Shown one piece after another: positions 18,585 through 30,482 of a DNA stretch of 64,000 nucleotides. The notes below the pieces were generated by a model. It had not been told where the DNA came from and ran no database searches. It saw only the letters and a list, made by a program, of their open reading frames with translations. The DNA comes from Methylophilus sp. (GTDB lineage Bacteria > Pseudomonadota > Gammaproteobacteria > Burkholderiales > Methylophilaceae), in NCBI GenBank assembly GCA_030696695.1, contig JAUYRP010000034.1, positions 248,001 through 312,000 of the forward strand, written 5' to 3'. A program made the translations under genes and the position numbers. Position 1 is the stretch's first letter; every line of letters begins with the position of its first letter.

Positions 18585-18666
18585 CTGTTATGCGCGTCTT
18601 TCCCTCTAAAGCTGGAATCCATTTTGTATTTCGTTGAATCACTAGGCCGGGGTTGCCCGGCGACAA

Positions 18667-18843
18667 GTTACTTTCTTATGCTTGTCCATAAGAAAGTAAC
18701 CAAAGAACACGACACCCCACTGCCGCTTCACCCTTCGGTCTTAGCGCCGCATCTGCGTGGTGACTGCGGAACTCACGCTTTCAGCGCTCAGACAGTCCTC
18801 GTCACCTTGCTTCTGCCGCTCGAGCCTCAGGCACAGCAAAGGG
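18667..18843 (+). repeat. Structured dispersed repeat, copy A
   Basis: Element of about 177 bp that fills most of the 18585-18888 gap between prmC and the HEPN gene. It opens with a perfect 14-bp stem: GTTACTTTCTTATG (18667-18680) and CATAAGAAAGTAAC (18687-18700), loop CTTGTC. ACACCCCACTGCCGCTT follows near 18713. GGTGAC (18759-18764) can pair with GTCACC (18801-18806), enclosing TGCGGAACTC, a small hairpin CGCT-TTC-AGCG and CTCAGACAGTCCTC. The element ends in AAAGGG. Copies B (29955-30156) and C (30431-30223, inverted) share the plan. The transcribed strand and function are unknown. Similar GTTACTTTC.../ACCCCAC repeats occur, from memory, in other proteobacterial genomes. Confidence 0.8.
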
Positions 18844-18888: not shown

Positions 18889-19608
18889 TTATTCCGTGCT
18901 GTTTAACTGATTGAATGTAGCAAGTTGATCATCGTATAGTTTATTTAAGCTCTTAAGTCTGTCACTGACACACTTGAATATGTACAGAAAATCGTCACTG
19001 CCCATAATTTTAGAAGAGTATGTGCTGGCATCAAACAAACTACTGTACTTGTTAAGTATAAGAATAGCTCTTTTCAAAAGCTCCTCAAAGTCGCCAAATG
19101 TTAAGGGGTATATCTCCCCGAGAACCTTACCTTTGGCAGTATTTTTCGCATTTCTATGTGCGATGAGATTTCCACGGTGTATTGTCAAAGCCTTTACTAA
19201 ATGATCTGTGTCAGAGCACAGCAAAGCATCTTCGCTTAACTCTTTCAAGTTTGGAATACGATCTTCTTTAGCTAAATCTTCGAGATAAGGATTTTCTTGG
19301 TTTCTAGCTATAAAGCTCGTTTTGTCAAAAAGTGGTAGATTTTTCTCTATGGTTTTGAGAAAGCTAAACAGGCTCAGTGCATCCTTGTTTTGGTCATAAG
19401 CTCTAACCAAAAAGTGACGACTGGTAGTGAAATGTGAATCAATTGTTAGAGACCAAAATGTATTCGTTTCCGCAATTACATCAGGAAATTCATTACCTGC
19501 ATTTAGTAGGTCTCTATACATTTTGTAGTGAATATGCGCATTAATAATGTCGCTGGCTAGTGCTTTAAATAGCCTTAAAAATTCACCTTCATCACTGATG
19601 GAAATCAT
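18889..19608 (-). CDS. HEPN/AbiU2-like protein of unknown function
   Basis: The 239-residue, mostly helical, hydrophilic protein resembles the AbiU2 group of HEPN domains. It has a conserved Trp/His helix (TFWSLTIDSHFTTSRHFLVR), then AYDQNKDALSLFSFL, and the HEPN-type R-x5-H motif in IHRGNLIAH (Arg145, His151). HEPN proteins are often RNases in toxin or phage-defence systems; no partner nucleotidyltransferase or antitoxin is adjacent. The start ATG lies 5 bp after the prfA stop, so it is probably co-transcribed with hemA-prfA. It is visibly richer in A+T than its neighbours and separates prfA from prmC. These facts suggest acquisition. A second protein with the same pattern is at 29376-29930. 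Confidence 0.7.
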   Translation of the reverse strand: MISISDEGEFLRLFKALASDIINAHIHYKMYRDLLNAGNEFPDVIAETNTFWSLTIDSHFTTSRHFLVRAYDQNKDALSLFSFLKTIEKNLPLFDKTSFIARNQENPYLEDLAKEDRIPNLKELSEDALLCSDTDHLVKALTIHRGNLIAHRNAKNTAKGKVLGEIYPLTFGDFEELLKRAILILNKYSSLFDASTYSSKIMGSDDFLYIFKCVSDRLKSLNKLYDDQLATFNQLNSTE

Positions 19609-29375: not shown

Positions 29376-29930
29376 ATGAAGCCGTCTAAAGTACTACAAG
29401 ATATTGTTACGTCAGCAACAGGAGCGAAGTGTCATTATGATGTCTGGTGGGCGCTAGTAAGTGAGGCTAAGCCAAAATACATAAAGCTCATAAATAATCA
29501 CAGCGATTTTTTCCGTGCATCACAAGATGCTCATTACACAGCATTCTTTATTTACTTAGCCCATTTATTCGATAAACGCTCTGACTCTTCCTCAATGTCA
29601 AAATACTTAGAGTTAATTAAAGATAAAACAGACTCTGAGCGATTTCAAGAACTAGAAACTAGCTATTGTGCGTTATTTGATAGGGTTAACCCCCTTTTAA
29701 AAGTACGCCATAAGTGCATTGCTCATGTTGATGTAAAACTTTCAGAAAACGATATATTTGAAGAAGTTAATCTTACTTGGAATGAAGTTAGAAGAATCAT
29801 CAGTGATGTTGCTAATTTCGTTGAGCTTCTATCTGGAGCACCACACCAAGGTGCAACTGGAATTCCGCGAGATGGAAGGTTAAGTGAGGCTACCATGCAT
29901 TTATTAGAAACGCTTGTTAAAAATGGATAG
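29376..29930 (+). CDS. HEPN/AbiU2-like protein of unknown function
   Basis: The 184-residue helical protein has the same layout as the product at 18889-19608 but low direct identity by eye: a Trp-containing first helix (HYDVWWALVSEAKPKY), DAHYTAFFIYLAHLFDKR, SMSKYLELI, then the R-x5-H motif in VRHKCIAHVDV (Arg111, His117) followed by a helix (LTWNEVRRIISDVANFVELL). The pattern fits AbiU2-like HEPN domains, a group that includes abortive-infection proteins; RNase activity is an inference. GGAGATA precedes the ATG. It is A+T-rich, stands alone after hemB, and repeat copy B begins 25 bp after its stop. Confidence 0.7.
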   Translation: MKPSKVLQDIVTSATGAKCHYDVWWALVSEAKPKYIKLINNHSDFFRASQDAHYTAFFIYLAHLFDKRSDSSSMSKYLELIKDKTDSERFQELETSYCALFDRVNPLLKVRHKCIAHVDVKLSENDIFEEVNLTWNEVRRIISDVANFVELLSGAPHQGATGIPRDGRLSEATMHLLETLVKNG

Positions 29931-29954
29931 TAAGAACTTTTCGCCTCTAGGCGA

Positions 29955-30156
29955 GTTACTTTACTTTTGCTTGCTCAAAAGAAAGTAACCAAACAAAAGA
30001 GCACCCCACTACCGCTTGTTTCCTGCGCTGCTTCATAAAATTGGGAGGCTGCGGAACTCGCCCTAACAACCCACAAAAATCGTGGGCTGTCGCGGTGCTC
30101 AAACAAGTCCTCGCCTTAATCCCAATTTTACTGTGCTGCTCGGCGCAGCAGAGGGG
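29955..30156 (+). repeat. Structured dispersed repeat, copy B
   Basis: About 202 bp. The first stem pairs GTTACTTT-A-CTTTTG (29955-29969, one bulged A) with CAAAAGAAAGTAAC (29976-29989). Linker GCACCCCACTACCGCTT follows. A long-range stem pairs TAAAATTGGGA (30036-30046) with TCCCAATTTTA (30120-30130), 11 perfect base pairs, continued by GGC/GCC. Inside lie TGCGGAACTC, a hairpin CCCAC/GTGGG (30070-30086) and CTCAAACAAGTCCTCGCC. A 3' hairpin CTGCT/AGCAG and AGGGG close the element. Stem sequences differ from copy A while pairing is kept. Confidence 0.82.
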
Positions 30157-30222
30157 TATGGAAAACCATACGAGCACAAAAGGTAACTGAGTATTCTTTG
30201 GTGGGTGCTCATAGTTGTTTAA

Positions 30223-30431
30223 CCCCTTACATCACGCTGAGTAGCGTAGACAAAATAAGAGTAAGGCGAGCACCTGTCTGAATCCCGCAGTGGCTTGTGG
30301 CGTTTGCAAGCCACTAGGTTGAGTTGCGCAGCCGCTTATTTTGTTGAGCAACGCAAGGAAGCCGTTAGGCCGAGATGTGGGGTGCCGTTTTCTTGGGCTA
30401 CTTTCTTTTCAGGCAGTTAAAAGAAAGTAAC
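30223..30431 (-). repeat. Structured dispersed repeat, copy C (inverted relative to B)
   Basis: About 209 bp on the minus strand. The first stem pairs GTTACTTTCTTTT (30431-30419) with AAAAGAAAGTAGC (30409-30397), one wobble. GGCACCCCAC follows. A long-range stem pairs 30343-30335 with 30259-30251 (CAAAATAAG with CTTATTTTG, 9 bp). The inner hairpin pairs GTGGCTTG with CAAGCCAC (8 bp). Then come TTCAGACAGGTGCTCGCC, a hairpin ACGCT/AGCGT and AAGGGG. Together with copy B it forms a convergent pair, with 66 bp between the 3' ends that contain a GAGCAC/GTGCTC inverted repeat (30172-30210). No gene lies in 29931-30533. Confidence 0.82.
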
Positions 30432-30482
30432 TAGGTGTCGGGCTACCCTCGACGTATAACAATACTCTTTGAATTGGATTAT

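Follow-up and report, generated by a model that had tools for sequence, protein, structure and literature searches.

A dispersed bacterial repeat with a fixed frame, exchangeable cores and a predicted triple-helix pseudoknot

Structured repeats in a Methylophilus genome raise the question of whether such sequences are structured RNAs, hairpin-based mobile elements or recombination targets. The window, a stretch of 64,000 nucleotides from contig JAUYRP010000034.1, was described in the original prediction as holding three copies, A, B and C, whose stems differ in sequence while pairing is kept. The quoted stems are all read in the sequence: CTTATG/CATAAG and GGTGAC/GTCACC in A, CTTTTG/CAAAAG and TAAAATTGGGA/TCCCAATTTTA in B, and CAAAATAAG/CTTATTTTG in C. 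The inner hairpins of 4, 5, and 8 bp are present as well. The copies are not three independent ones, since B and C are the convergent halves of one dyad element of about 513 bp (29941-30453 by alignment, with a blast extent of 523 bp in locus L005), and A is a solo half unit (18646-18843). The units are also longer than predicted, because an outer hairpin, H0, precedes the first stem in each half.

The halves can be laid out as a series of defined parts. In copy A, sequence reading, folds and alignment place H0 at 18646-18661. Next come the long stem S1 (18667-18680 with 18687-18700, loop 18681-18686), a candidate third-strand segment (18702-18709) that mirrors the S1 arm at 7 of 8 positions with one T-to-C exception, and the putative pseudoknot strand S2 (18711-18714), whose partner is the loop at 18683-18686. 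Sequence reading and alignment give a closing stem, ACCCC (18714-18718) with GGG (18841-18843), and a core within the same interval (18714-18843), and a long-range stem is read inside the core (18759-18764 with 18801-18806). From S1 onward these features are assigned to the minus strand, the one on which the structure is predicted. Half B (29941-30157), also on the minus strand, has H0 at 29941-29954, S1 at 29955-29969 and 29976-29989, S2 pairing between 29973-29976 and 29999-30002, and a closing stem of ACCCC (30003-30007) with GGGGT (30153-30157). Half C is inverted (30223-30453, plus strand), with the closing stem and core followed by S1 (30397-30431) and H0 (30437-30453).

The copies fold better than shuffled sequences and recur elsewhere in the host genome. 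On the strand described in the original prediction, here called the strand as read, RNA folding gives a z-score of -2.94 for A, -3.66 for B and -2.89 for C, and shuffles fold as well in 0, 1, and 0 of 200 cases; these energies leave pseudoknots out of account. The pattern GAAAGTAACN{0,30}ACCCCAC has two matches in the window versus 0.00 expected. In the host genome (2.98 Mb, 34 contigs) the searches made bring up a further pair of complete elements and a half with an internal deletion, all located on the contig of the window. Half units are about 200 nt long, and full elements are about 550 bp.

The stems covary, and whole hairpins are exchanged between copies. Alignment of 48 distinct Methylophilus halves (3 of 51 had odd lengths and were dropped beforehand) gives a structure of 57 pairs in which 95.2% of 2730 cells pair and 20 of the 57 pairs show two-sided changes. 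The covariation score is 0.197, versus 0.091 for shuffled sequences and 0.036-0.064 for slid structures, and as the structure was drawn from the same sequences it is favoured over the slid ones. Further pair types number 29, below the 34.9 of the shuffled sets. Types of stem P2 and hairpin P3 occur in many combinations, so part of the covariation is due to exchange of whole modules, and one-sided intermediates also occur. The idea that structure is under selection holds up on the covariation, the pseudoknot and the mirror relation described below, but reading the A, B and C stem differences as stepwise covariation does not, since much of that difference is whole hairpin modules exchanged. The right halves of L002, L063, and L064 have extra hairpin inserts inside stems, for example of the GGACTTTCGTCC type, and they look as if cores grow by nested insertion.

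Template switching has to be weighed as a source of such stems. It is reported to generate and preserve hairpins and to account for asymmetric base-pair frequencies (PMC8794818), so nested stems alone are no proof of selection, and arm complementarity alone could be kept in this way. The repeats might then be functionless palindromes whose arms are complementary through template switching (quasipalindrome correction) during replication, with the covariation a mutation artefact. Replacement of modules as wholes, both arms together, fits this account, as does the published record of hairpin maintenance and asymmetric pair frequencies. However, it predicts neither a relation between segments that is mirror instead of Watson-Crick complementary nor the same frame across phyla, and the one-sided intermediates also speak against it. 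We regard it as unlikely.

The loop of S1 appears to form a pseudoknot with the spacer. After removal of repeats and of copies without ACCC, 144 parsed copies leave 87. In 81 of these, at least 4 bp form between the S1 loop and the spacer that immediately precedes ACCC, while permutation gives a mean of 40.5 and a maximum of 53 in 500 trials. Pairing of at least 5 bp is found in 52 of 87 copies versus a permuted mean of 16.5. Outside the genus the pairing is found in 57 of 62 rows (permuted mean 27.0, maximum 36); these rows represent 59 loci and include none from Methylophilus and three from other Methylophilaceae (L092, L181, and L184). The segment tested for S2 extends into the arm, and a few of the matches (4 of 62 rows) are for this reason plain A/T runs. 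Within the genus, one loop-spacer pair is C-G in 35 halves, T-A in 12 and T-G in 1. Pairing between loop and spacer is thus kept through compensatory change, as predicted for an H-type pseudoknot. The conserved blocks that were described as single-stranded take in both the segment with which the loop of the first hairpin pairs and the candidate third strand.

The spacer also mirrors the 3' arm of S1. At least 7 of 8 positions match in 60 of 87 copies (permuted mean 18.1, maximum 31 in 2000) and all 8 in 43 of 87 (permuted mean 5.9), while an unreversed comparison of arm and spacer gives 2 of 87. When arms and spacers are collapsed into 25 classes, 20 reach 7 of 8, versus a permuted mean of 5.1 and a maximum of 12; the permutations leave the relatedness of the copies in place. 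One strand therefore appears to carry a pyrimidine-purine hairpin followed by a mirror third strand, the arrangement of an intrastrand triplex.

The geometry of S1 is kept while its base changes. A scan for hairpin, S2 and an ACCC-like block, with the GTAAC anchor left out, finds 276 matches (138 distinct) in 3.0 Mb of partly overlapping loci and 1 in 0.53 Mb of shuffled sequence. Among the 45 distinct matches without GTAAC/TAACC, 20 are in register with a 5-bp base followed by a 1-nt turn (permuted mean 3.4, maximum 9), and six out-of-register geometries give 0 to 2 fits. The register is thus maintained although the base of S1 varies, the variants being GTAAC, TAGGG, GTACC, TCGAC, GGGGC, and GAACC.

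The mirror relation follows a code. In copies preselected for at least 6 of 8 mirror positions, A in the arm corresponds to A in the spacer in 513 of 522 cases, G to G in 111 of 112, and T to C in 8 of 8, and arm C is mixed (G 4, C 3, A 2). Among the 99 of 138 distinct matches that reach the same threshold (the other 39 are left out of this count), arm T again corresponds to spacer C in 10 of 10 cases at three positions. Before selection for the mirror, arm T has C in 4 of 11 cases, G in 5 and A in 2; the G cases are one Methylophilus stem type (five rows), and the A cases are two rows with bulged arms. On the complement, T-to-C puts G across from an inverted U-A pair, and in pyrimidine-motif triplexes such inversions are reported to be read by G (Griffin and Dervan 1989).

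Several observations suggest that the complement of the strand as read is the one under selection. In 44 rows of the strand as read, with 4 of 48 left out as chimeric or as having other modules, there are 89 A.C and 16 G.T cells; an A.C opposition read on one strand corresponds to G.U on its complement. In unique modules of P2 and P3 the counts are 22 A.C and 4 G.T. The cells are unevenly placed, with 54 of the 89 A.C at two pairs near the end and 14 of the 16 G.T at one of these. For S1 across taxa the counts are 52 A.C and 1 G.T, but these represent just 6 and 1 distinct contexts (p = 0.06). A stricter mismatch scan of other taxa, with 4 A.C, 2 G.T and 38 other mismatches, does not separate the strands. 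Of 82 copies from outside Methylophilaceae, 55 have at least two GGA-loop hairpins on the complement, compared to 2 on the strand as read and 1 in shuffled sequences. Methylophilaceae, a group that in this count includes L092, L097, and L181-L184, have them in 0 of 50 copies. Contrary to the complement reading, L427, L447, L453, and L454 (from two genomes) have the GGA motif on the H1 strand. Overall the structured strand appears to be the opposite of the one described originally. Gammaproteobacterial cores, for example those of L065, L073, and L109, also repeatedly show a single A.G or A.A opposition at a fixed position of the inner hairpin (TTTCGA.../...GCGAAA).

The strand bears on the type of triplex and on the molecule. 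The order on the complement is S2, pyrimidine loop, S1, S2', S1', so that the loop would run parallel to the purine strand of S1. This orientation suits Hoogsteen triples of the U.A-U and C+.G-C types. On the strand as read, a DNA triplex of the purine motif fits the mirror relation equally well, but the wobble asymmetry, the GGA loops and the T-to-C cases led us to replace this idea with a triplex of the pyrimidine motif on the complement. According to PMC4666352, RNA has intrastrand triplexes of the pyrimidine type but cannot form purine-motif ones, so that a purine-motif triplex on the strand as read would need to be DNA. We infer that the triple helix forms and that the molecule is RNA, not single-stranded DNA.

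The element is dispersed throughout Methylophilus. An element query matches all but one of the 22 genus genomes (21 of 22), and the repeat is intergenic, dispersed and about 550 bp long. In G007, taken to be Methylophilus sp. 42, a 611-nt query has 26 matches that each span the greater part of it, and the units are mostly convergent pairs. A strict pattern finds up to 53 half units per genome (53 in G008, 49 in G017, and 24 in G005), while the reversed pattern finds none in any of the 22. The strict pattern occurs in 57 of 150 genomes of the family, and the reversed control has one match in each of three genomes outside the genus. The Methylophilus elements have the termini TTTCGCC...GGCGAAA, which are terminal inverted repeats as in MITEs. 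Since the copies align end to end and have these inverted ends, an origin as a dispersed mobile element, one of the options named at first, is favoured. The original view that this is more than a plain MITE is right in one respect, as the two halves agree only in part of their sequence but have the fold in common. The element resembles MITEs in being non-coding, dispersed, bounded by inverted ends, and present or absent at a site. It differs in that the halves are more alike in fold than in sequence and modules are nested and swapped; no target duplication is recognizable in the flanks examined.

Related copies occur in other phyla. The comparable ACCCCAC repeats that the original prediction mentions in other proteobacteria are real and are found by pattern search. 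A longer pattern is present in 10 of 398 genomes of the phylum (control 0), and a pattern search of genome contigs returns at least 116 stretches. Among the matches listed, 70 of 127 have the S1 hairpin, and these include Dyella, Xanthomonas, Rhodanobacter, Azotobacter, Thiobacillus, and Methylotenera, as well as MAG records labelled Alistipes, Cystobacterineae, and Oscillospiraceae. A 961-kb replicon of Ilyobacter (Fusobacteriota) has blast matches at 20 places, and the two copies whose sequence was read across the whole frame have S1, S2, and ACCCC with a matching GGG. At another Ilyobacter locus (L424, 44594-44992) a gene for an IS3-family transposase adjoins a truncated S1-like hairpin, which could be an IS inserted into a copy. 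Related hairpins are also seen in MAGs from several phyla (L095, L101, L104, L111, L129, L139, L144, and L153), some of them probably from termite guts to judge by isolate names, hinting at transfer between phyla or at binning error.

Occupancy of individual sites varies between species. The site orthologous to L045 is occupied in G007, G017, G016, G008, and G005 and empty in G010, G002, and G003; in a ninth genome, G015, it is split over contigs. The inner modules at this site differ between species and the core has been replaced, and a nested second H0-S1 is common to G016 and G008. No junction or target duplication is resolved here, as the flanks of the empty sites are too diverged. A second presence/absence test with two close genomes gave no clean empty site, and no target-site duplication is recognizable in the G007 flanks. 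In the window, a release-factor gene (prfA type) is separated from prmC by copy A together with an HEPN_AbiU2 gene, whereas in G012 and G013 the release-factor gene and prmC are adjacent. Four G007 elements (L045, L052, L054, and L060) have a recurring GGTNATTCTTT-like motif about 22-36 bp outside one H0, which perhaps belongs to the element. Another short palindromic repeat, of the CATTCCGGC...GCCGGAATCC type, is seen beside elements L285, L293, L252, and L135; Methylophilus has it, and Dyella has a version of it that is rich in G+C.

No resident gene recurs as the mobilizer. The copies could be folded single-stranded DNA ends recognized in trans by an HUH/Y1 transposase (RAYT or IS200-like). 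Hairpins at both outer ends, dispersal between genes and inverted pairs would suit such a system, and a purine-motif triplex on the strand as read would need DNA (PMC4666352). Against it, fewer than half of the genus genomes (10 of 22) have a Y1_Tnp (PF01797) match; none was found in G008, G017, G005, or G000, and in G016 the match was below the cut-off only. Nor is there a Y1 family among 72 neighbours in other taxa, in the best 25 of 39 families. A transposase of this kind therefore seems improbable. REP/BIME sequences are likewise intergenic palindromes, often in inverted pairs, but REPs are 20-40 nt (PMC4666352) and the element is 0.2-0.5 kb with an inferred triplex pseudoknot; REP/BIME goes with RAYT, and a Y1 gene was not found in several copy-rich genomes here.

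Other vehicles were considered. Reverse transcriptase (RVT_1, PF00078) is found in 6 of 22 genomes of the genus, and it was rejected as a resident mobilizer, as it is not in G008, G016, or G007. G008, with the most pattern matches, has neither Y1_Tnp nor RVT_1 by these searches. Integron attC sites were rejected, as their consensus GTTRRRY is not matched by GTTACTT. The Methylophilus element has no match in plasmid and phage collections, and a stretch of the Dyella locus L065 has none in plasmids. Among viral contigs, 120 stretches were returned and 3 of the 80 loci examined have the hairpin, so carriage by phages was dropped.

Neighbouring genes were examined for a functional link. In G007, 12 of 20 sites are between convergent genes, and of the 40 genes that flank the sites 30 are oriented toward the element (one-sided p 0.001). 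This bias would fit bidirectional 3'-end elements (terminators) of the flanking genes, and H0 with the T-rich S1 arm scores as terminator-like in B and L045. However, 38 loci in other taxa with both neighbours have no orientation bias (9 convergent, 20 tandem, 9 divergent), insertions that avoid promoters would give the same bias, and no long T run follows H0, which makes terminators very unlikely. No promoter-like sites were found in three elements scanned. In other taxa, where the scan covered 72 of 81 neighbours, there is no recurrent partner gene next to the copies, and the most frequent of the best 25 of 39 neighbour families is seen in 2.

The HEPN_AbiU2 genes are context outside the repeat. 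One is next to copy A in the same insertion (18889-19608, minus strand), and the other ends 10 bp before half B (29376-29930, plus strand); they have no blast similarity to each other and no match in PADLOC. Both such genes found in the window thus abut a copy, as they would if the repeat were the RNA partner of a toxin, an RNA antidote. Against this, tblastn with the two proteins finds none beside the other copies then collected, three other copies in the host genome have other neighbours, and PADLOC gives no support. A toxin gene beside the RNA in most copies, as in type III-like toxin/RNA systems, was not found, and this pairing is extremely unlikely.

Part of the core in some gammaproteobacterial copies is a known motif. 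TwoAYGGAY (RF01731), which is named in a list in PMC2864571, matches above the gathering threshold in L081, L187, and L200, 3 of the 14 loci given to Rfam, and these matches lie in the core. Rfam finds no TwoAYGGAY in the window, only a TPP riboswitch (RF00059; 52172-52315, minus strand, 61.7 bits), and copy A at a relaxed threshold together with the 14 loci gives no family for the Methylophilus copies. A class-wide search finds TwoAYGGAY in 12 of 185 genomes, several times as inverted pairs. In a strict scan the pseudoknot is beside 8 of 30 TwoAYGGAY loci, four of which have it on the strand that carries GGA, and the other 22 are without the pseudoknot frame. The likeness is the double GGA-loop hairpin, common in gammaproteobacterial copies; the TwoAYGGAY alignments inspected (L187) span this hairpin only, and the Methylophilus copies are without it.

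These matches raise the possibility of a regulatory RNA family that has become repeated, such as one that titrates CsrA/RsmA. Its basis would be the two or more GGA-loop hairpins on one strand of the 55 copies outside Methylophilaceae, the three RF01731 matches, and the CsrA binding proposed for TwoAYGGAY (PMC4333381). It is set against the lack of two such hairpins in all 50 Methylophilaceae copies, the variation between species in copy number and in occupancy of the one site tested, and the small number of TwoAYGGAY loci with a pseudoknot beside them. We consider this origin quite unlikely.

The nearest described relatives, closest in kind, are the BoxC/PIT intrastrand-triplex repeats. BoxC/PIT/TM_ECO repeats are intergenic and dispersed in many proteobacteria, combine on one strand a Y-stem and an R-stem with another R segment whose order is mirrored, and vary greatly in copy number among relatives (PMC4666352). 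BoxC itself is a 37-nt G/C-rich motif, and the available text of that source does not mention a pseudoknot (PMC4666352). Unlike BoxC, the predicted triplex here is A/T-rich, has a 5-bp base and a 1-nt turn, would be knotted by S2, and sits in an element of 0.2-0.5 kb with exchangeable cores. The BoxC pattern CCCTCNCCCN3-6GGGNGAGGGN3GGGNGAGGG has no match in the window. Among 456 loci, 7 contain it as a motif of its own in the neighbourhood, and in 5 of 8 cases an S1 hairpin lies no more than 300 bp away. These five are L073 (4115), L135 (2815), L172 (5045), L177 (273), and L161 (4014), and four of them are on the same strand as the S1 hairpin.

The fold has a further analogue, and the literature gives no account of the element. 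Telomerase-type H-type pseudoknots have major-groove U.A-U triples. They resemble the predicted structure in topology and strand polarity; the element differs in being bacterial and repeated and in its inferred C.G-C and G.U-A triples, and homology is not claimed. A literature search with six repeat strings found one string, in unrelated papers only. Topic searches returned no account of the element, and as they left subscription literature mostly outside, an earlier description is possible. Nothing specific to the element is in the available text of PMC2267715. The R178/R200 repeats of P. fluorescens are on record (PMC2718517).

Comparison of the sequences establishes a widespread dispersed element with a fixed frame, swapped cores, a compensatory predicted pseudoknot and a candidate third strand in mirror order. 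The best explanation as a whole, to which we give an even chance, is that the copies are halves of a non-coding, non-autonomous dispersed element with an RNA triple-helix pseudoknot. The fixed frame comprises H0, S1, the spacer, and the ACCC...GGG closing stem, and within it is an exchangeable hairpin core. On the complement each half would read core, closing stem, H-type pseudoknot and H0. S2 would be stem 1 of the pseudoknot and S1 stem 2, and the pyrimidine-rich connecting loop would lie in the major groove of S1, parallel to the purine strand, where it would make triples of the types U.A-U and C+.G-C and also, at some inverted pairs, G.U-A. The knotted, triplexed end may protect or mark the copied strand of a selfish element that spreads by means of machinery supplied in trans. 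The cores would be cargo swapped by template switching or gene conversion, with CsrA/RsmA-type hairpins in many gammaproteobacteria and others in Methylophilus, and they might acquire a use, such as CsrA/RsmA binding. More tentatively, and with less confidence, the copies may belong to a cross-phylum class of elements in which an RNA triple-helix pseudoknot is the constant frame for persistence and spread, possibly via RNA, and interchangeable structured cores, including CsrA/RsmA decoys, are the cargo.

Mirror covariation is an unusual form of evidence, as it points beyond pairing to a third strand. Stem covariation in repeats may stem from module exchange or template switching, and tests of mirror relation and wobble asymmetry are offered here to tell selection from these processes. 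The third-strand reading can be tested with short oligonucleotides. The triple-helix tertiary motif is best known from telomerase and viral RNAs. If the reading is correct, such a motif would be conserved across bacterial phyla in elements without a known enzyme, and TwoAYGGAY would gain a genomic home in some gammaproteobacteria.
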